DNA of 13,814 nucleotides from an uncultured Nitrososphaerales archaeon (lineage in GTDB: Archaea > Thermoproteota > Nitrososphaeria > Nitrososphaerales > JAAOZN01). The stretch lies in NCBI GenBank assembly GCA_938029515.1, contig CALJAQ010000150.1:1-13814 (forward strand), in the 5' to 3' direction. Positions 1,712 to 10,690 of this stretch are shown in pieces. Position numbers and translations under genes: made by a program. The stretch's first letter is position 1. Each line of letters begins with the position of its first letter. A model generated the notes under the pieces. That model was not told where the DNA came from. It searched no databases and saw only the letters and a list, made by a program, of their open reading frames with translations.

Positions 1712-1881
1712 AATCTGGCTAAGGAGATGCTAATCAGAGCCTTACACCCATCTTCGATGAGGCAGCAGTCAATCAAAACGAATCATAGAGGGGTGTGCTA
1801 AACAGTTAGCATCGATTAGATGACAAGGTTCTCTCAAGGAATGGGGGTTGGAATCACGACAAACCCTGCTTGACTTGAGTA

Positions 1882-1892
1882 ATATATTTAAG
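1882..1892 (+). promoter_or_regulatory. TATA box for the thioredoxin-like gene
   Basis: ATATATTTAAG lies about 45 bases before ATG 1933, which puts transcription start near 1912. This leaves a leader of about 20 bases that contains GGGTGA (1922-1927) five bases before ATG 1933. It rules against the upstream ATG 1894, which would overlap the box. Confidence 0.6.
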
Positions 1893-1932: not shown

Positions 1933-2196
1933 ATGGGGAATAAAGTCTTAGGTGTAGTGAAGGTGCTTGGGCCTGGATGCCCTCGTTGCCAAGAAACGAA
2001 GAGGCTTGTGATAAACGCTCTAGCCGAGCTTCAGATCGCTGCAGACGTGCAAGAAATTAAAGACCCTAAGGAGATAGCGAAGCTTGGTGTAATGTTCACA
2101 CCAGCTGTCATCATAAATAATCAACTTGTCTCTCAAGGTAGAGTGCCAAGGTATGAGGAAGTGAAGAAGTGGTTCACAGATAGAGCGCCTAAATAG
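1933..2196 (+). CDS. Thioredoxin-like redox-active disulfide protein (CPRC)
   Basis: An 87-residue cytosolic thioredoxin-fold protein of the small redox-active disulfide protein 2 (MTH895-like) type. The active site is GPGCPRCQ with Cys16 and Cys19, and the cis-proline loop is FTPAV (Pro57). The C-terminal EEVKKWF helix is typical of the family, and length fits. The start ATG 1933 is chosen because GGGTGA lies five bases upstream and the TATA box fits; ATGs at 1894 and 1918 are in frame but poorly placed. Family members are often found next to ArsP/YraQ-type permeases, and one lies two genes downstream here. It could reduce a metalloid substrate or a disulfide on a partner. It is separated from DUF169 by 123 bases with its own promoter, so co-regulation rather than co-transcription is likely. 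Confidence 0.85.
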   Translation: MGNKVLGVVKVLGPGCPRCQETKRLVINALAELQIAADVQEIKDPKEIAKLGVMFTPAVIINNQLVSQGRVPRYEEVKKWFTDRAPK

Positions 2197-2265
2197 TAAG
2201 CCTATGTTATAGCAGAAGGATTAGGGGTGACGGATGGGGTAATGAGGTTCCGGTTGCTTCAGTTA

Positions 2266-2293
2266 ATATCAACATATTTAAATAGTTGGATAT
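2266..2293 (+). promoter_or_regulatory. TATA box inside a 28-base dyad (putative operator)
   Basis: The TATA-like core ATATTTAAATA (2274-2284) lies at the centre of an ungapped dyad from 2266 to 2293. Eleven of 14 base pairs are symmetric, with ATATC on the left arm answering GATAT on the right. A regulator bound here would block TBP. The box is about 40 bases before the GTG start, giving a leader of about 15 bases that includes AGGGGGT (2307-2313). Winged-helix regulators of the ArsR type bind such sites, but no regulator gene is seen in the window. Confidence 0.5.
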
Positions 2294-2319
2294 GTATCTG
2301 ATACTTAGGGGGTAAGATT

Positions 2320-3036
2320 GTGAAGACAGAATACCCTAGCATCCAAAGGAAGCTTACTGATATTCTTGGTTTAAAGTTCCCTCCAGTGGCTGTAGCGTTG
2401 ATTAGGAGGGCAGGTGATATTCCTCAAGGTGTGGCTGAGCTCGATAAGCCGATGTTCTACTGCGGCATGATAAAGTATGCGATGCTCGGAAACATATTCT
2501 ACGCCAAGGAGGATAAGCATAGCTGCAGGAGAGGAGCAGCAGCACTAGGAATGATCAGCATCCCAGAGGATGAGCTGACAGGAGAGTTCTACCTCAACAA
2601 GGCATCCTGCAGCTCCCTAAGGGCTGCTACAAGGTTTGTGGTAGAGTCGCCGAGCCTTGAGCCTAGAAGCATCTACGCAACACTACTCTCACCACTAGAG
2701 AAGACGCCCGTTGACCCTGATGTAGTAATCATGGAGACGATTCCAAGAAGAGCCTTCGAAGTCATGCATGCATCCATATTCGATACAGGTGGTATGGTAG
2801 AAAGCTGGATGTCTGCTCCAAGACAGATCTGCTCCGCATCAACAGTAAGACCATACTTAGGTAAGTTGAACATAACCTTCGCCTGCGAGTTTGCAAGGAT
2901 AGCTGCGAAAGCCTTCGGGGCTGAATATATGGATGAAGGTGTCATCATCGGTATACCTGGTGAAATGCTTCAAACAATTGCGGAGAACATCGATAGAATA
3001 GGCTATGTGAAGAAGAGGCTTGCAGCTACTACTTAA
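2320..3036 (+). CDS. DUF169 family protein
   Basis: A soluble protein of 238 residues of the DUF169 family, whose biochemical role is unknown. The family signature is visible: LKFPPVAV near residue 20, FYCGMI around Cys48, HSCRRGAAALGM (His67, Cys69), NKASCSS (Cys97), and Cys171 and Cys189 towards the end. These spaced Cys residues could bind a metal or cluster, which is inference. The GTG start follows AGGGGGT by six bases. The stop TAA is directly followed by the GTG of the permease gene, so the two are almost certainly co-transcribed. There is no signal peptide or membrane segment. Length matches the family. Confidence 0.85.
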   Translation: MKTEYPSIQRKLTDILGLKFPPVAVALIRRAGDIPQGVAELDKPMFYCGMIKYAMLGNIFYAKEDKHSCRRGAAALGMISIPEDELTGEFYLNKASCSSLRAATRFVVESPSLEPRSIYATLLSPLEKTPVDPDVVIMETIPRRAFEVMHASIFDTGGMVESWMSAPRQICSASTVRPYLGKLNITFACEFARIAAKAFGAEYMDEGVIIGIPGEMLQTIAENIDRIGYVKKRLAATT

Positions 3037-4098
3037 GTGTTAGTGGATATGTATCTAAGAATAGGCGCTTTAGAAGGTTGGCGCCTACTTCGCACAGGCC
3101 TGCTGCTTGCATTTATAATCTCAGTCATTGCTGGCTTAGTCTACTCTAGGATTATGGCTTATTCACTCGCGCCAACCTTGAGCGTAGCAGATCTTCATGG
3201 GCTTCCAATATGGCTTATTCCAATAGCTTACCTTATAGACTACTTCAGCCATGGGTGGATCTGCCTCCTCTTCGCCTTCATAGCTGCTGGTCTAATCTAT
3301 GAGCTTATACCCAAGCATTTAATTACAACGTATATGAGGAGAGGTAGATCAGCAGGGTACCTACTAGCACTTGCTGCAGCACCCTTCCTAACAGTCTGCT
3401 CATGCACAATGGTTCCTCTTTTCGCTGGAGTGCTCTATAGCGGAGCTGGTATAGGGCCAGCGATCACCTTCCTCTTAATGGCACCCTCAGCTAACATACT
3501 TGCTATACTTCTCACAGGAGACATGCTATACTGGGAGCTGGCTTGGGTGCGTCTAGCGGTATCGATTATAGTCGCTCTTTCAGCGGGTATCGTTGTTTCT
3601 AAAACACCTTGGGGCAGGTCGGTTGAAAGAGAGTGCCATAACACCGCGCAAACCGCTGTTGCGGTTAGTGGTGTGGAGCGGCATCTAGACGAAAAGCTGT
3701 GGGCTGCTTTGAAGTTCGGAGGGTATTTAGCTAAGCAGATCCTACCCTACTTTATCATCGGGTTAATCGCTGTAAGCTATCTTGAGGCTTATCTACCTAC
3801 AGATATAGTAGGTAGATACTTAACTGGAGTTGGTGGCGTCTTGATAGCATCGGTACTTGGGGGGCCTCTCTACACACCTACCCTTGTGGAGATCGTTGTA
3901 GGTAAGGGTCTATGGAGCTTAGGCATGTCGAAAGGTGCTCTGTTGGCTTGGCTTATGGGTCAACCTTATGACGTCGCAAACGCATTAGCGGTATCTAAGA
4001 TAGCGAAGTGGAGGGTCGTATTAACATATATGGTGATAGCGTGGTTAGGCAGCGTAGTATTTGGTCTCCTATATGGGGTGTTAAGTGGAAGCCTCTAG
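3037..4098 (+). CDS. ArsP/YraQ-type permease (DUF318)
   Basis: A 353-residue integral membrane protein with about eight to ten hydrophobic segments in two halves. These lie roughly at residues 22-38, 57-90, 106-134, 137-160 and 168-187, then, after a charged loop (190-220), 225-250, 265-290, 300-320 and 327-348. The hallmark is VCSCTMVPLF with Cys121 and Cys123, followed by APSANI at 149-154. In characterised ArsP proteins such cysteines serve export of trivalent methylarsenicals, while other members are annotated only as permeases. The start abuts the DUF169 stop; GTG 3037, GTG 3043 and ATG 3049 are all in frame, and the first is taken for coupling. The gene downstream starts nine bases after its stop. 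The substrate here is unproven. Confidence 0.85.
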   Translation: MLVDMYLRIGALEGWRLLRTGLLLAFIISVIAGLVYSRIMAYSLAPTLSVADLHGLPIWLIPIAYLIDYFSHGWICLLFAFIAAGLIYELIPKHLITTYMRRGRSAGYLLALAAAPFLTVCSCTMVPLFAGVLYSGAGIGPAITFLLMAPSANILAILLTGDMLYWELAWVRLAVSIIVALSAGIVVSKTPWGRSVERECHNTAQTAVAVSGVERHLDEKLWAALKFGGYLAKQILPYFIIGLIAVSYLEAYLPTDIVGRYLTGVGGVLIASVLGGPLYTPTLVEIVVGKGLWSLGMSKGALLAWLMGQPYDVANALAVSKIAKWRVVLTYMVIAWLGSVVFGLLYGVLSGSL

Positions 4099-4107
4099 GT
4101 TATCTTT

Positions 4108-4869
4108 ATGTCTGAAGCGAAGATTCGTAAAATACAGCCCCCGCCTGAGTACCCACCTGAAGAAGGTAGATACTTAAGGGGTAACGATCTTTCTCCAGCA
4201 GCCGTCTGCGTGCTACTGCACACCTTCTACGACCAGATACCAGATTGGATGCAGGCTTTAGTTAGGGTAGGTGTTGAAAGCGGCGCAGCCCTAGCAGGTT
4301 TCCTCCAAACCGAAAATATCGGGATAGAGAAGATAATCTGCAACGTAGTTGCGAACCCGAATATACGCTATCTGATCGTATGTGGAGTTGAATCTATGGG
4401 TCATCAGCCAGGACAGGCTCTGCAGGCTCTAGTGGATAACGGTGTTGACGATAAGTGGAGGATAATAGGAGCTGCAGCACCTACCCCCTACCTTTACAAC
4501 ATACCTCTAGATGCTATTGAACGCTTCAGAAAGCAGATAAAGTTGGTGAATCTGGCTCTTCTTGATGATGTCACGTTAGCGAGGAAACCTGAGGTGATAA
4601 GGGAGGCTATTAGATGCTGTTATCAAGAGGAGCCTACAAAATTCCTGCAATGGACCTTATATGACCCAGGCGCATATCCTGCTAAACCTATGTGTTTTAA
4701 AATCACTTGGCGTATCGAAAGACCATGGGCAGTCTTTTCAGAGAGGGAGGAGGAGGTGTTAAGGAAGATTGCTGAAGCTGCTAGTAAAGAAAGAGAAAAG
4801 GAGAAGCGTCGAAAAGAAGCCGAAGAGCTACTAGAGCTGCTTGGCTTTAAGAAAAACGGTGGGAATTAG
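4108..4869 (+). CDS. Soluble MtrA-like corrinoid-binding protein
   Basis: A 253-residue protein homologous to subunit A of tetrahydromethanopterin S-methyltransferase, the corrinoid-carrying subunit. Residues 20-145 align well with methanogen MtrA: GRYLRGNDLSP, TENIGIEKIICNV, NPNIRYLIVCG, and GHQPGQALQAL, whose His99 matches the cobalt-ligating His84. NGVDD, RIIGA and NIPLDAIERF follow. Unlike membrane MtrA, the C-terminus has no transmembrane helix but a charged, probably coiled-coil tail (about 211-247, rich in Glu/Lys/Arg). No other mtr gene is in the window. It starts nine bases after the permease stop and is probably the last gene of the operon. It also carries a longer insertion near residues 38-56 (TFYDQIPDW). 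A likely role is carrying a methyl group on a corrinoid for a reaction other than methanogenesis; the partner is unknown. Confidence 0.88.
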   Translation: MSEAKIRKIQPPPEYPPEEGRYLRGNDLSPAAVCVLLHTFYDQIPDWMQALVRVGVESGAALAGFLQTENIGIEKIICNVVANPNIRYLIVCGVESMGHQPGQALQALVDNGVDDKWRIIGAAAPTPYLYNIPLDAIERFRKQIKLVNLALLDDVTLARKPEVIREAIRCCYQEEPTKFLQWTLYDPGAYPAKPMCFKITWRIERPWAVFSEREEEVLRKIAEAASKEREKEKRRKEAEELLELLGFKKNGGN

Positions 4870-5170: not shown

Positions 5171-5885
5171 TACTATGGTTATGAAGAGGTGTTGAAGTAT
5201 TACTGCTTACGTGATGATGTCAAGATAAGGTTTGACTCTTCTGTTGGGGTGTTTGATTTACTCTTTCTTATCTTGGCTCTTCTGATGTCGGCTTATGTCT
5301 GCCTTTGACCTTCTCTTAGATAGGTTAGGGGTTCAGGGCTCTTTAGGAGGGGTAAAGTGCCTCTGGAGAGTAAGGTTCTTGCTGCTCTGATCTACTTCTC
5401 TGGGCTATAGGAGGGTCTCTTCATTGGGAGGCTTCTCCTATGAAGCGTTAAGCTATGGTATAATGTGTTGAAGAGTATGTTACCTGAGCTTGAAGATGTG
5501 TAGCTGCGGATGAGAGTAAGGCGAAGCTCAGTAAGTTGCAGATCTGTATCTGGGCTGCTAGGGGTGTTGATGGTATGGAGGTTCTCGCCTTCAGACGCTC
5601 CTTCACCAGATCATCACCGAGCTCATCCTCAAAGATGTGCTGCGATACTGTAGCCCCTGATCCTTGTAGGTAAAGGGCCTTGATATAGAGGTGCCTTGGA
5701 GAGGCTTGGGTCGATGTGTCAGCATCAGACCTTCAGTGAGAAGAACAGATCGAAAGATGGTTTAAAGCACTCAAGGCGAAGCTCAAAACCTTCTACAACA
5801 GCTCCCAGCCAACACAACTATAGCGACGATAAGAAGGTTCCTCGAATGCTTATATAATTTCATCCCACTGAGGCACTTATCTTGA
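5171..5885 (+). pseudogene. Decayed DDE transposase (IS6/IS240-like, tentative)
   Basis: An IS remnant with several stops and frameshifts. In the frame of GTG 5357, VPLESKVLAALIYFSGL is followed by a stop, then KLWYNVLKSMLPELEDV and another stop. After a frameshift come ADESKAKLSKLQI, WAARGVDGMEVLAF, then in another frame LILKDVLRYC and PLILVGKGP with a stop where Trp is expected. Next are ERWFKALKAKLKTFYN and, after one more shift, [19 protein letters not shown], ending at TGA 5883-5885. These are the ordered segments of an archaeal DDE transposase: the first Asp is in ADESK, the second Asp has become Gly in LILVGKG, and the Glu is in ERWF. The 5171-5356 part, also with stops, probably belongs to the N-terminus but is less certain. 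No terminal inverted repeats were found. Confidence 0.82.
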
Positions 5886-5910
5886 CATCATCCTTTTCCC
5901 CAAAGGCAAC

Positions 5911-5920
5911 TAATATATCA
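5911..5920 (+). promoter_or_regulatory. TATA box for ilvD, probably leaderless
   Basis: TAATATATCA is centred about 26 bases before ATG 5942, so transcription would start at or next to the start codon. There is no good ribosome binding site before that ATG, consistent with a leaderless mRNA. The box lies just after the dead transposase. Confidence 0.55.
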
Positions 5921-5941
5921 AAGGTGTGCGAGATAGAGAGT

Positions 5942-7615
5942 ATGATCTATTTGAGTAGTAAGATTAAGACAGGTGTGGATAGAGCGCCGCATCGAAGTCT
6001 TCTAAGAGCTGTAGGGGTTAAAGATGAGGATATGCAGAAGCCCTTCATAGGCTTAGCGAACTCATACACCGACATAGTTCCAGGCCATATTCACCTCAGG
6101 AGGTTAGCTGAGGTTGTTAAGCAGTCTGTGAGAGAAGCCGGTGGTGTGCCATTCGAATTCGACACGATAGCTGTAGATGACGGCATAGCTATGGGGCATC
6201 TAGGGATGAGATACTCCTTACCATCTAGAGAGCTGATAGCAGACTCTGTAGAAACGATGGTTAAAGCGCACTGCTTTGACGCCTTAGTCTGCATAGCGAG
6301 CTGCGACAAAATAGTTCCCGGGATGCTTCTAGCAGCGGTTAGGCTTAACATCCCAACGATCTTTTTAAGCGGCGGGCCTATGCCAGCAGGTAGGTTGAAA
6401 GATGGTAAAGCAGTTGACTTTTCAACCGTCTACGAAGCGGTAGGAGCATACTATAAGGGGCATATTACGCTGGAAACGCTTAAGGAGATTGAGGAGGCTG
6501 CTTGCCCAACCTGCGGCTCATGTGCTGGGCTGTTTACCGCCAACTCGATGAACTGCGTCTCTGAGGCTCTAGGAATGGCGTTTCCAGGAAACGGGACCTT
6601 GCTATCAACCTCTTCTGAGCGGTTGGATCTGGCTCGTAGAGTTGGGCAGAGTATTGTAAGGTTATGGGAGTTGAATCTGAAGCCTCTTGATATAATAACT
6701 GAAAGAGCGCTCGATAACGCGTTTGCCTTAGATCTGGCTATAGGAGGTTCAACAAACACTGTCTTACACCTGTTGGCTTTAGCTAACGAAGCTGGAATAG
6801 ATTACCCATTAGATAGGGTTGATAAGTTGTCCAGCCGCGTTCCCCAGCTATGCAAATTAAGCCCAGCATCGGACTTTCATCTGGAGGACTTTGCTGCCGC
6901 TGGTGGTGTAAGCGCGGTGCTCCAAGAGTTAAGTAAGCTCGATAAAGTGGTTGACCTGAAGCAGATTACGGTAACAACTAAAACACTTGGAGAAAATATT
7001 GAAGGCGCTGAAATCTGTGATAGTAGGGTGATAAGACCTGTTGAGCAGCCATACAGTAGTAGCGGGGGGATAGCTGTATTATTCGGAAATCTAGCTCCTG
7101 AAGGGTCTGTCGTTAAGGTTGGTGCGGTAGATCCATCTATTAGGGTGCATAGAGGGAAAGCTGTTGTATTTAACTCAGAAGATGAGGCGCTTATAGGCAT
7201 CAAGGAGGGTAAGATCAGCAGAGGTGATGTAGTTGTGATCAGATACGAAGGGCCTAAAGGTGGGCCTGGGATGCCTGAAATGCTCGCCCCCACTTCTATG
7301 ATCGTGGGGATGGGTCTAGGGAAAGAAGTTGCCCTGATAACTGACGGACGCTTCTCAGGAGCAACAAGAGGAATATGCGTGGGACACATCTCGCCAGAGG
7401 CCGCTGTAGGAGGGCCGATAGCGCTCATCAAAGACGGTGACATCGTAAAGATAAATCTGGAGGAGAAGTCTATTACCGTTGAACTTTCACCTGAGGAGAT
7501 GAAGAAGCGTAAGGCTGATTGGAAGCCTATTGAACCACGCTTCAGGTCAGGATACCTAGCAAGATACTCTATGTTAGTAGGCTCAGCTAGCAAAGGTGCC
7601 ACGCTGAATCCTTAG
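5942..7615 (+). CDS. ilvD: Dihydroxy-acid dehydratase
   Basis: Cytosolic Fe-S enzyme of isoleucine and valine synthesis that dehydrates 2,3-dihydroxy-acids to 2-oxo acids. With the start at ATG 5942 it has 557 residues, the normal family length; the frame is open back to TTG 5882, but those 20 extra residues run into the transposase remnant and lack family similarity. Motifs: [13 protein letters not shown] near the start, SCDKIVPGM (Cys121, and Lys123 that binds Mg), [19 protein letters not shown] (Cys188, 191, 194), and [10 protein letters not shown] with the catalytic Ser near the C-terminus. The FVPGH-type segment (IVPGHIHL) replaces the PC of the Cys-triad [2Fe-2S] type, as in E. coli IlvD, which suggests an oxygen-sensitive cluster; that is inference. 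Upstream TATA box at 5911-5920. It leads the branched-chain gene block. Confidence 0.95.
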
Positions 7616-7660: not shown

Positions 7661-8308
7661 ATGGATGCAGCCGCCTTCCTTCTTAAGGTGCGTAAAGATC
7701 TTAGCGAAGAGAACAAGAAGATAGTAGATCACCCCTTCATCAAAGATGCGGAGACAAGGAGCCTCACTGAAGAGAAGATTAAGCTCTTTGTCTTGCATCA
7801 AAATTATATTGTGGCGCATGACCTACGCTCTCTGGCGTTAATGCTTACGAGAAGCGTAAACCAAGATGAGGCTGAGTTCTTCCAACTACTAATTCAAGGC
7901 GACGCAGAAGCGTTAAGGAGGCTACATAGTTTTGCTGAAGAGCTCAGCTTGAAAATGGAAGACCTCGGATCACAGCCAATTATACCCGAAGCAGTATCAT
8001 ATACTCACTACCTCGCTTGGTTAGCCATCTACGCAAACGCTGGTGAACAAGCCGCCGCCTTAACAGTCAACCTCCCAGTCTGGGGTGAGGCGTGTAGGAG
8101 GCTTGGCGCAGCCTTAAAAGCGCAGTACGGCTACAGGAAACTCGGCTTCTTTGAGCTCTTCTCAGAACCCTTTGATGCTATAGAGGCTGCAGCACATAAG
8201 GTTATGGGTAGATATATCGAAGTATCTTATGTAAATATGGTGAAGTGTGCAAAGATGATCCAACGATATGAGCTGATGTTCTGGGACGGCATCTATAGGT
8301 GCATCTGA
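7661..8308 (+). CDS. TenA-family protein lacking the catalytic Cys and Asp
   Basis: A 215-residue all-helical protein of the TenA/PqqC-like family. Aligned to the neighbouring TenA, the catalytic Cys position is Asn137 (in TVNLPVWGE), the substrate Asp is Gln47 (in VLHQNYI) and the first active-site Tyr is Ile50. Tyr114 (SYTHYL) and Glu204 (RYELMFWD) are kept. It is therefore unlikely to be a normal thiaminase/aminopyrimidine aminohydrolase. It could be a structural partner of the next gene product or a related enzyme with other chemistry. Start ATG 7661 is 45 bases after the ilvD stop with GGGAG immediately before it, an unusually short spacing. Its 3' end overlaps the next gene by ten bases, which implies coupled translation. 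Confidence 0.8.
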   Translation: MDAAAFLLKVRKDLSEENKKIVDHPFIKDAETRSLTEEKIKLFVLHQNYIVAHDLRSLALMLTRSVNQDEAEFFQLLIQGDAEALRRLHSFAEELSLKMEDLGSQPIIPEAVSYTHYLAWLAIYANAGEQAAALTVNLPVWGEACRRLGAALKAQYGYRKLGFFELFSEPFDAIEAAAHKVMGRYIEVSYVNMVKCAKMIQRYELMFWDGIYRCI

Positions 8309-8982
8309 GATTGACGCACAGATCTTTTACAGAAGACCTTTGGTCTTCGATCAAAGGCATCTTCGACTCGATCCTAACTCATCCTTTCGTAAAAGGGCTT
8401 GTCGACGGCAGCCTTGAGGAAGAAAGGTTCAAGTTCTATGTAATACAAGACAACCTTTATTTAAGTGAGTACGCTAGAACCCTAAGCTTAGCTGCAGCCA
8501 AAGCACCGTTAGACAAATGGTTTCTTGCATTTAACGAGCACGCTAAATTGGCGCTAGTTGTTGAAAGGGCTCTGCATGATAGCTTCTTTAGAGGCTGGGG
8601 TTTAAGTGAAGAGCAGCTTCGCTCCACACCGATGATGCCAACGAACCTCGCCTACACATCTTATCTTAAAGTTGTTGCCATTACGGAACCATTCTACGAG
8701 GTAGTAGCGGCGCTGCTACCTTGCTACTGGGTCTACTGGGAGGTTGGTAAAGAGCTGGAGAGGAGGGGCTCTAAAAACCCCCTCTACCAGAAGTGGATAG
8801 AAACCTATTCTTCGAAAGAGTTTGGCAGTATATGTGGAGTTGTCGTAGAGATCACTGATGAGTTGTCAAAGAACCTCACACAAGAGCAGAAGGAGGGTAT
8901 GAAGAAGCACTTCACCACCGCAAGCAGATATGAGTACATGTTCTGGGATGCAAGCTATAGGATGGAGCGGTGGCCCATCTAA
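8299..8982 (+). CDS. tenA: TenA, aminopyrimidine aminohydrolase (thiaminase II)
   Basis: A cytosolic enzyme of thiamine salvage, 227 residues from GTG 8299. All known TenA active-site residues are present and each lies seven positions after its Bacillus subtilis equivalent: Asp51 (D44), Tyr54 (Y47), Tyr119 (Y112), nucleophile Cys142 in LLPCYWVYWEVG (C135), Tyr170 (Y163) and Glu212 in RYEYMFWD (E205). It hydrolyses degraded or intact thiamine pyrimidines to release the hydroxymethyl pyrimidine for reuse. The start overlaps the end of the upstream paralogue; TTG 8311 is an alternative. Being in an ilv block fits supply of thiamine diphosphate to acetolactate synthase, which is inference. Confidence 0.88.
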   Translation: MHLRLTHRSFTEDLWSSIKGIFDSILTHPFVKGLVDGSLEEERFKFYVIQDNLYLSEYARTLSLAAAKAPLDKWFLAFNEHAKLALVVERALHDSFFRGWGLSEEQLRSTPMMPTNLAYTSYLKVVAITEPFYEVVAALLPCYWVYWEVGKELERRGSKNPLYQKWIETYSSKEFGSICGVVVEITDELSKNLTQEQKEGMKKHFTTASRYEYMFWDASYRMERWPI

Positions 8983-9020: not shown

Positions 9021-9060
9021 TTATATTAGAAGCATAGGTAGAGTAAGGTTCAACAGAGGT
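9021..9060 (+). promoter_or_regulatory. TATA box and ribosome binding site of the cimA-type gene
   Basis: TTATATTA (9021-9028) predicts transcription start near 9050. GAGGT (9056-9060) follows and ends seven bases before ATC 9068, the same spacing as the GAGGT before the GTG of hdrA in this window. This is the main support for translation starting at 9068. Confidence 0.5.
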
Positions 9061-9067
9061 AAACGGA

Positions 9068-10690
9068 ATCGATTCAAAAGTCGATATACTTGACACAACG
9101 CTAAGGGATGGCGCACAGACCTACGGTATATCATTTACCCTTCAAGACAAATTAAGTATAGCTCAAAGGCTTGACGAGCTAGGAGTAAAGTATATCGAAG
9201 GAGGCTGGCCTTCATCAAATCCAAAGGATTCAGAATTCTTCAACGCTGCTAAAGTGTTCAAATTAAAGTGCTCAGAGATAGTAGCGTTCACAAGCACGAA
9301 GAATAAACGTGCACAAGCAGATAAGGATGTAAACCTAAGAGCAGCACTATCCTCAGGGGTTAAGACTGTCGTGGTCTTCGGAAAAGCCTGGGATCTGCAC
9401 GTTAACTCCGTGTTGAAGATCAGCCTAAAGGATAACCTTGACCTCATAAGGGAATCTATTCTGTTTCTGAAAGAAAGGGGGGTGAATGTAATCTTCGACG
9501 CCGAGCATTACTTCGACGGATATAAAGCTGATCAAAACTACGCACTGGAGGTGCTGAAGGCGGCTGAAGAAGCAGGAGCCAACACATTAGTGTTATGTGA
9601 CACTAACGGCGGAACCTTACCGCAAGAAGTCCACGCAATAGTGCAGAGAACCAAGGAGGAGATAAGAAGTAAATTAGGGATCCACGCCCACAACGACTCA
9701 GGGCTAGCTGTTGCTAACACCGTTATGGCTGTATATGCAGGTGTGAGGCACGTTCAATGCACGGTAAACGGATTAGGTGAAAGATGCGGTAACGCTGACC
9801 TCTGCCAGATACTACCAATCCTCCACTTTAAAATGGGCTTCACCGTCTTAGATTCTGACAAACCAAGAGACCAACAGCTAATGGGGTTAACCGCCCTATC
9901 AGAGTACGTATATGATCTACTCAACCTCCCAGCAGTAGCAAATCAACCCTATGTTGGTAGGAACGCCTTCAGACATAAGGCTGGCGTGCACATCGACGCC
10001 GTAACAAAGGTACCTACAGCATACGAACATATCGACCCATCATTGTTAGGTAATACTCGAGGGATATCTGTCTCCGAGCTCTCAGGGAGGGCAAGCATCG
10101 TAAGCTTAGCGTCTGAACTCAACTTCGACCTGAGCAAAGACGACAATCTAGTCTATGAAGTTCTGAAAGAAATTAAGGAGCTTGAAGCAAAAGGCTACCA
10201 CTTCGAAAACGCCAAGGCAAGCGCGCATCTAATCCTCCTTAGAAAAGCCGGTCTACTACAAACACCATTCAGATTAATTTCTTGGAACGCCTCATCTAAA
10301 ATGAATGGAGAGAGTCGGTGCGCAGCAGAGGTGACAGTTGAATTCTCCGGAGAAATCTATAGGGAAAAGGCGGCAGGTGTAGGCCCGGTTCACGCACTAG
10401 ATGTAGCCTTTAGGCAAGCGGTTCTACGCAAATACCCACAACTTTCAAGCACTAAACTCGTCAACTATAAGGTAACAGTAGTTGATAGCGTGAAAGCGAC
10501 TGCCTCTGAGGTGAGGGTCTTCATAGAATTTGAGGGCGACGGTAGAAGGTGGGCAACAACTTCAGTCTCACCGAATATAATTGAAGCAAGCATAAAAGCG
10601 TTGGCTGAAGGATACACGTACAAACTAGTCTTAGACACATTAAACACAGAGAGGACCCTAAAATCGACTCATAAATCAAATCATAGGTGA
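9068..10690 (+). CDS. cimA: Citramalate synthase-type acyltransferase (LeuA/CimA family), apparent AUC start
   Basis: Cytosolic Claisen-type enzyme of the isopropylmalate/homocitrate/citramalate synthase family; the sequence fits the citramalate synthase group, which condenses pyruvate and acetyl-CoA for isoleucine. From 9068 it has 540 residues: DTTLRDG at residues 9-15, YIEGGWPSSNPKD, metal-binding HAHND (His206, His208), LGERCGNADLC near 237-247, and a complete C-terminal LeuA-type regulatory domain (about 420-530). Homologous sequence clearly begins upstream of the first GTG in frame (9254, mid-domain). The frame back to TAA 9044-9046 contains no ATG, GTG or TTG. ATC 9068 fits the GAGGT spacing; a base error is the alternative. 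It sits between tenA and ilvC. Substrate choice within the family is not proven by sequence. Confidence 0.85.
   Translation: MDSKVDILDTTLRDGAQTYGISFTLQDKLSIAQRLDELGVKYIEGGWPSSNPKDSEFFNAAKVFKLKCSEIVAFTSTKNKRAQADKDVNLRAALSSGVKTVVVFGKAWDLHVNSVLKISLKDNLDLIRESILFLKERGVNVIFDAEHYFDGYKADQNYALEVLKAAEEAGANTLVLCDTNGGTLPQEVHAIVQRTKEEIRSKLGIHAHNDSGLAVANTVMAVYAGVRHVQCTVNGLGERCGNADLCQILPILHFKMGFTVLDSDKPRDQQLMGLTALSEYVYDLLNLPAVANQPYVGRNAFRHKAGVHIDAVTKVPTAYEHIDPSLLGNTRGISVSELSGRASIVSLASELNFDLSKDDNLVYEVLKEIKELEAKGYHFENAKASAHLILLRKAGLLQTPFRLISWNASSKMNGESRCAAEVTVEFSGEIYREKAAGVGPVHALDVAFRQAVLRKYPQLSSTKLVNYKVTVVDSVKATASEVRVFIEFEGDGRRWATTSVSPNIIEASIKALAEGYTYKLVLDTLNTERTLKSTHKSNHR

Follow-up and report, generated by a model that had tools for sequence, protein, structure and literature searches.

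Why does a gene for a soluble, MtrA-like corrinoid-type protein stand directly behind one for an ArsP-type permease in an uncultured Nitrososphaerales archaeon? The question is raised by positions 1933 to 4869 of contig CALJAQ010000150.1 (GenBank assembly GCA_938029515.1), a stretch of 13,814 nucleotides that was analysed as a whole and is here called the window; the genome it comes from (G000) is 72% complete. Four genes make up the block, encoding a small thioredoxin-like (Trx) protein, a DUF169 protein, the permease and the MtrA-like protein. Our answer, offered tentatively and with somewhat less than even probability, is that the window holds the archaeal version of an arsenic-detoxification cassette of modular build, into which a soluble MtrA methyl carrier has been recruited, demethylation being its likeliest activity. 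The gene linkage of this type of MtrA to arsenic resistance (ars) genes, on which the answer leans, is strong.

The four-gene block and its recurrence

The block is real, as was established by re-deriving its coordinates and its Pfam scores, all of them over the cut-offs. On the forward strand, a thioredoxin-like protein of the MTH895/ArsE family with a CPRC motif (1933..2196; TIGR00412 84.3 bits, cut-off 62; Thioredoxin_3 86.1 bits, cut-off 24.8) is followed by the DUF169 protein (COG2043; 2320..3036; PF02596 148.6 bits, cut-off 27), an ArsP_1-family permease with a CSC motif within a hydrophobic segment (3037..4098; PF03773 152.7 bits, cut-off 32.3) and the MtrA-like protein (4108..4869; PF04208 135.3 bits, cut-off 25). 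The last three are packed with gaps of 0 bases (3036 to 3037) and 9 bases (4098 to 4108), in agreement with the preliminary description, which had also placed the CPRC thioredoxin upstream. The thioredoxin gene lies 123 bases from DUF169 in the window; the corresponding distance shrinks to 16 bases in G001, a genome of the same genus (7802 to 7819), and to 10 bases in G014 (L149), and on account of this close spacing thioredoxin is counted as a member of the unit. The permease stays under the equivalog cut-offs of SaoE (76.1 against 325) and SO_0444 (82.2 against 300).

The pairing of a corrinoid methyl carrier with a metalloid permease, put forward earlier from this one sequence, extends beyond it. 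The complete Trx-DUF169-ArsP-MtrA set was found in four genomes, G000, G001, G036 and G014 (in the last over two contigs), with MtrA identities to the window of 74 to 86% across the other three. In G014 and G036 mtrA is followed by an ArsR gene, and the opposite end of the set has a divergent gene for an ACR3-type pump.

Linkage of the MtrA subfamily to arsenic genes

Relatives of the window MtrA were sought in 61 genomes comprising its own and related ones (24 with any match), in 398 genomes of the phylum (14 at E <= 1e-30), in 256 genomes of the class of G084, the Bathyarchaeia (12 at E <= 1e-45), and in 245 genomes of the phylum of G441 (19 at E <= 1e-12), three bacterial genomes (G441 to G443) having been included for the similarity of their MtrA and not by even sampling. 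The window-type subfamily comprises 24 loci in 23 genomes. A repeat search over the 245-genome set gave no additional window-type locus, and one scan of viral contigs, in which a bacterial MtrA served as query, detected no relative.

At 17 of the 24 loci no more than 6 kb separate MtrA from a core ars gene (ArsP, ACR3, ArsA, ArsD, ArsC, ArsM or ArsR), and at 15 this holds for an ars gene other than ArsR. Loci of MtrH, itself a methyl-transfer gene, served as a matched control drawn from the set's archaeal genomes, and 2 of 16 were positive on both measures (Fisher p 3e-4 for any core ars gene, 2e-3 with ArsR left out); of the two positives one (L170) is the MtrA cluster of G036 itself and the other (L165) is an ArsM-like match, possibly a general S-adenosylmethionine (SAM) methyltransferase. 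The queries of this neighbour scan came largely from the same loci and several were labelled by eye (ArsC, CcdA, MerR; HMA and P-ATPase partly through plasmid annotation), which biases it towards matches. Based on open reading frames (ORFs), it also hid some genes beneath longer antisense ORFs, and a tblastn repeat returned the same totals. Free of the query bias is a Pfam search for ArsP_1, which gave 23 matches in 18 of the 23 MtrA genomes and, in varying gene orders, placed ArsP at a distance from MtrA of about 7 kb or less in 11 of the 23, the expected number being 0.19 (computed from rounded genome sizes, with contig breaks and shared ancestry ignored).

The metal or metalloid link of the preliminary description is sharpened to arsenic by these neighbours, which include ACR3, ArsA, ArsD, one ArsM and ArsR proteins with a CxC pair. 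The bacterial locus L087 reads Trx-ArsR-ACR3-MtrA-ArsP, with ACR3 at 453.8 bits against a cut-off of 282.8; two further bacterial loci read ArsP-DGC-Trx-ArsR-MtrA-Trx-CcdA/DsbD-like (L086) and ArsP-Trx-ArsR-ArsC-ACR3 piece-ArsD-ArsA pieces-MtrA (L027), the latter with ArsD at 132.3 bits and an ArsC of the low-molecular-weight phosphatase type. ArsP stands divergent beside DGC-MtrA-ArsR in L047, and L106 reads MtrA-ArsR-ACR3-GcvH-DGC-OsmC-ArsM, with two ArsR in the cluster and an arsenite methyltransferase of 359 bits (cut-off 263). The ACR3-like proteins of L046 and L106 fall slightly below the cut-off (267.8 and 271.2 against 282.8). Among the ArsR proteins listed for these loci the CxC pair is present in 13 of 13 and an E/K-x-C-x-C motif in 12 (for example ELCVCD, KMCVCE and ERCVCD; the exception is DMCPCVL in L108), and the ArsR of L027, outside the 13, has ELCVCN. 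In classic ArsR proteins As(III) is bound at a motif of this kind. Where it shares an operon with such an ArsR, the corrinoid-type carrier offers a concrete candidate gene.

In a tree of 22 loci, the outgroup branches of which are long and the root unsure, ars-linked loci make up 5 of 5 in the window clade and 5 of 5 in one bacterial clade, 4 of 8 in the Bathyarchaeial clade, 1 of 2 in G416/G852 and 0 of 2 in the bacterial sisters G442b and G670.

Some clusters have further peculiarities. In ArsR-MtrA clusters of Bathyarchaeia (L048, L106 and L109) GcvH-type lipoyl proteins turn up repeatedly, and their lipoyl dithiol is a possible ligand for arsenic; a secreted-looking protein accompanies them directly 5' of MtrA (with a CBM96 match in L106). 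At L027 the ars operon of the draft bacterial genome has ArsA in split form and ACR3 as a short piece (5311-7375).

Could the real substrate be another element, such as antimony, mercury, lead or selenium, or a range of organometals, with the ars genes belonging to a mixed metal island? A P-type ATPase is found near MtrA in G094 (where it adjoins the gene), G271 and G776, and long relatives joining MtrA to a pterin domain occur on Planococcus plasmids in a cassette of ArsR/SmtB, HMA and P-type ATPase genes, and in Nitrospirota beside ArsR with a MerT-like gene (2 of 14 loci) or MerR (1 of 14). The neighbours of the window-type protein itself are arsenic-type, however (ACR3, ArsA, ArsD, ArsM and CxC-type ArsR), and we regard another element as unlikely.

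Other forms of MtrA were left out of the count as belonging to other subfamilies. These were 20 weak matches in order-mates (no ars genes in the two contexts read, L062 and L063), 9 loci, spread over 7 further genomes of the phylum, that encode a longer MtrA (E 8e-42 to 6e-32; 8 contexts, L053 not among them, were seen and lack an ars operon) and the 14 long-MtrA loci of Nitrospirota, viewed with 1.5-kb flanks, 9 of which have a ParA-like neighbour by eye. The long form, scanned in two proteins (L093 and L094), consists of a Cys-rich N-terminus, MtrA and PterinBD-DUF4346. The window protein and the Planococcus protein, each used as query against plasmids, returned the same 4 records. In the three from Planococcus (L094, L095 and L096) the long form is preceded by genes for ArsR/SmtB, for a cation transporter of the HMA type and for a heavy-metal P-type ATPase, the last listed in 2 of 3 records, and an ISL3 transposase is present; on a Paraburkholderia plasmid (L097) a like protein lies opposite a gene that appears MerR-like by eye. 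The long plasmid form is, to judge from its domains and neighbours, probably a metal-linked corrinoid-pterin protein. These contexts make the metal link wider, and the substrate is thus possibly not always arsenic.

The MtrA-like protein

PF04208 is the sole domain matched by the window protein at E <= 0.1. The protein passes the subfamily model PRK00964 NF002126 (MtrA-like; 178.9 bits, cut-off 161) and fails the Mtr-complex equivalog TIGR01111 (136.7 bits, cut-off 249.15). Its solubility, claimed earlier, is borne out by hydropathy: no C-terminal membrane helix was found, the 19-residue maximum after residue 160 being 0.05, and none of the tested listed homologs exceeds 1.6 past that residue. 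A C-terminal extension with a D-x-G-A motif replaces the helix, and an insertion of about 11 residues lies near residues 40-50. Homologs were taken from a search with the window MtrA (set 1, 120 listed of 3606) and from one with a bacterial-type MtrA (set 2, 120 listed of 1622); Asp186 and Gly188 of the extension are present in 120 of 120 in both listed sets. The AlphaFold2 model (pLDDT 82.7) matches cobalamin-bound MtrA, 5LAA, with an E of 1.5e-16 and a target TM of 0.86.

In the accessible part of PMC4915002, His84 of MtrA is the cobalt ligand and is tied via Glu54 to a segment called the 'meander', with the consensus GAIPF. The counterparts in the window are His99 (codon 4402..4404, forward strand), kept in 120 of 120 and 119 of 120 listed homologs of the two sets, and T68-E69-N70 (codons 4309..4317, forward strand), which correspond to Thr53, Glu54 and Asn55 of M. 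fervidus MtrA and are each present in all 120 listed homologs of set 1. Set 2 retains Thr53, Glu54 and His84, in their equivalent positions, in 119, 120 and 119 of 120; in homolog P0223 Arg replaces the cobalt-ligand His. The meander, GAIPYIEN in canonical MtrA, has become APTPYLYN in the window protein and PTPYLxN in the homologs, with Thr at the canonical Ile position in 117 and 118 of the 120 listed in the two sets. An MtrA fold free of corrinoid, perhaps a chaperone that binds arsenic or a metal and feeds ArsP, would accommodate the altered meander and the Arg of P0223, but the retention of His in 239 and Glu in 240 of the 240 listed homologs is hard to explain without cobalt, which leaves this explanation highly improbable.

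Homolog P0104 is a natural fusion in which a two-cluster ferredoxin, bearing two motifs of four cysteines each, precedes the MtrA domain at the N-terminus, and small ferredoxin-like genes were noted by eye near MtrA or ArsP in L108, L110 and L111 (two of them, when scanned, scored 16.3 and 17.4, below the Pfam cut-off of 25). The fusion and these neighbours would fit reductive activation.

DUF169

In an alignment of 34 of the 46 DUF169 search matches, the window's included, Cys48, Cys69, Cys171 and Cys189 are kept in 33, 34, 33 and 33 sequences, respectively. The structure model is confident (pLDDT 93.1), and structure searches with it matched no known fold. Its near relatives include, by name, Methanosuratincola, Methanophagales and Hadarchaeum. 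Among the 398 genomes of the phylum there are 8 matches at E <= 1e-30, and the contexts of six, window aside, were read. DUF169 accompanies ArsP-type pumps over part of its range and methyl-transfer genes in one case. Through its company in the window this uncharacterised family gains a testable setting.

Two other settings of DUF169 were seen. The five loci of family f20 (L131-L135) have DUF169 by an SBF-family pump in every case, with DGC in three and ArsP in two; no window-type MtrA was seen in the contexts read, and they represent a second DUF169 cluster type. At the weaker match L136 no SBF pump, DGC or ArsP was found nearby. In G036 a second DUF169 gene (L138; G036:C53, 526-7994) lies between genes of methyl-coenzyme M reductase, assigned by Pfam as alpha, gamma and mcrD, and a gene of the URO-D family, to which the corrinoid:coenzyme M methyltransferases belong; judging from this locus, G036, which belongs to the window's order, is a methane- or alkane-type archaeon.

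Proposed mechanism and direction of methyl transfer

The cassette would be modular, with thioredoxin-like, DUF169 and ArsP modules to which relatives add ArsR, ACR3, DGC and others. A low-potential iron-sulphur donor would keep the corrinoid as Co(I), which would take the methyl from methylated arsenic; the pentavalent form would fit best, leaving As(III). Chemically, a transfer from methyl-As(V) to Co(I) that leaves As(III) would be the reverse of As(III) methylation by methyl-Co(III). DUF169 may hold or present the arsenical via its four cysteines, the small thioredoxin would keep thiols or arsenic reduced, ArsP would export escaping trivalent methylarsenicals and ACR3, where present, the arsenite formed. 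The corrinoid in vivo, the arsenical substrate, the direction of methyl transfer and the role of DUF169 are what we infer here. That an arsenic-regulated, O2-independent C-As methyl transfer exists across archaea and bacteria, carried out by a soluble corrinoid protein of the MtrA type whose arsenical-handling partner is DUF169, seems to us an evenly balanced proposition, and it would take the use of MtrA beyond methane metabolism.

Should the methyl group run the other way, methyl-Co(III)-MtrA would methylate arsenite in place of ArsM, thioredoxin would reduce the product to MAs(III) and ArsP would export it as waste or weapon. ArsP of C. jejuni is reported to export trivalent organoarsenicals and not arsenite (PMC6205960), and in methanogens MtaA has a side reaction by which arsenic receives the methyl of methylcobalamin (PMC13262295). 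A methyl feed could come from MtrH, which is present in 13 of the 17 archaeal MtrA genomes. It was not found, however, in G000 or in G001 (98% complete), so that no methyl-pterin feed is evident in the latter, and it is absent from 5 of the 6 bacteria; MtrB to MtrG were not among the 10 window ORFs scanned, and no genome-wide search was made. ArsM itself exceeds its cut-off in 13 of the 23 MtrA genomes, against 1 of 14 control genomes, so that a second methylase is not needed in those 13; in L106 it stands beside MtrA. In the 11 genomes with ArsP by MtrA it exceeds the cut-off in 5 and not in 6, one of the six being 72% complete. The ArsM counts over all 23 genomes and the lack of MtrH in G001 tilt towards demethylation, and the six ArsP-linked genomes without ArsM tilt towards methylation; as a test of direction, ArsM presence was set aside as not decisive. 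Demethylation remains the more likely of the two, itself a tentative choice, and the reversed cassette is rather unlikely.

Several observations weigh against an arsenic-demethylating cassette. Besides the six genomes without ArsM, which fit methylation too, the 10 kb surrounding the window MtrA contains no ArsR, ACR3 or ArsA that we could find. Seven of the 24 loci (G084, G094, G416, G442b, G670, G712 and G716) are without a core ars gene in the 6 kb examined, some of them on short contigs (G094 6.2 kb, G716 3.7 kb) or near a contig end (G670, G712), and G002, a 99% complete genome of the same genus, yields no match to the window MtrA, which makes the four-gene set accessory. Checked for recurrence, the main part of the preliminary description holds in the four genomes with the full set and at the 17 ars-linked loci; in view of the seven others and of G002, MtrA is not wholly tied to ars genes. 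DUF169, cast as the partner in the preliminary description, keeps that part in the four-gene set of four genomes; it is present in only 9 of the 23 MtrA genomes and is therefore an optional partner. Its 16 matches there lie by ArsP in 6 cases (G000, G001, G014, G036 and twice in G776), four further loci (L138-L141) have no ars genes alongside, and six are unread. The change of the meander from GAIPY to APTPY suggests that methyl-transfer behaviour may differ, and the proposed mechanism leaves the methyl acceptor downstream of MtrA unassigned.

The seven ars-less loci would also suit a housekeeping one-carbon carrier, for instance in methionine synthesis, that ars operons retain as a substitute for a thiol- or zinc-dependent enzyme which fails under arsenic. 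The accessible part of PMC7005905 proposes a corrinoid protein as donor to core-MetE, and a methyl-H4folate-type pterin-binding enzyme (PF00809) adjoins the long-form relative L076. Such a carrier would leave ArsP and DUF169 unexplained, though, and by window-type loci no methionine-synthase gene was noticed in contexts read by eye, no search for one having been made; we consider it quite improbable.

Relation to known systems

The mercury-methylating protein HgcA is a corrinoid protein of the CdhD type. The likeness to the arsenic cassette proposed here is a corrinoid protein that passes a methyl to a metal, and the difference is that the window protein matches the MtrA family alone. ArsM-ArsP methylarsenical systems have ArsP in common with the window, and ArsM exceeds its cut-off in the 13 MtrA genomes already mentioned; unlike them, the MtrA locus carries a corrinoid-type and not a SAM-dependent protein. 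The C-As lyase ArsI shares the proposed outcome, removal of a methyl from arsenic, but is a dioxygenase (PMC10579292, accessible part) and the MtrA-like protein is of another family. With an even chance in our estimation, a system of the kind proposed would be the anaerobic counterpart of ArsI or, in reverse, the corrinoid counterpart of ArsM.

The arsenic methylation by MtaA likewise involves a corrinoid-borne methyl and arsenic; according to the accessible part of PMC13262295 it is incidental and not arsenic-regulated, whereas the window's relatives stand with ArsR regulators. A corrinoid protein accepting the methyl of arsenic has already been proposed for methylotrophic methanogens (PMC6776024, PMC10579292); that proposal relies on known methyltransferases and coenzyme M, and the passages available contain no MtrA, DUF169 or ars-operon gene. 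With the MtrA of the Mtr complex and its cytoplasmic methanogen homologues (5LAA and 5L8X; PMC4915002, accessible part) the window protein shares the MtrA domain, the fold and the His, Glu, Thr and Asn residues of the cobalt site. It differs from Mtr-complex MtrA in its insertion, D-x-G-A extension, APTPYLYN meander and lack of a membrane helix, and in having no MtrH in G000 or G001. A published survey has ArsP, a small thioredoxin, a CcdA-like protein, ArsR, ACR3 and ArsA in common with the window's relatives, and its main text names MtrA and DUF169 0 times. Within the open-access literature, a search that left most subscription papers outside, no paper was found to link MtrA or DUF169 genes to arsenic. 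The knowledge gaps set out in the available parts of PMC10579292 and PMC10439189 fit a demethylating cassette.

Other features of the window

The thioredoxin ORF is readable from 1894 or from 1933. On the forward strand before this gene lies an AT-rich element resembling a TATA box (1881..1892), and a second TATA-box-like element, ACATATTTAAATAG, is found before DUF169 (2272..2285); both come from direct reading of the sequence and resemble TATA boxes by eye only. A scan for sigma-70 promoters and terminators, a type ill-suited to archaea, gave about the level of shuffled sequence. Downstream of the block, a tandem pair of TENA/THI-4 family genes overlaps by 10 bases (7661-8982). A LeuA/citramalate-synthase-like gene (9050-9254) is open 5' of its first ATG, GTG or TTG, with the stretch VDILDTTLRDG, so that either translation begins at an unusual codon or this part of the sequence has been altered.

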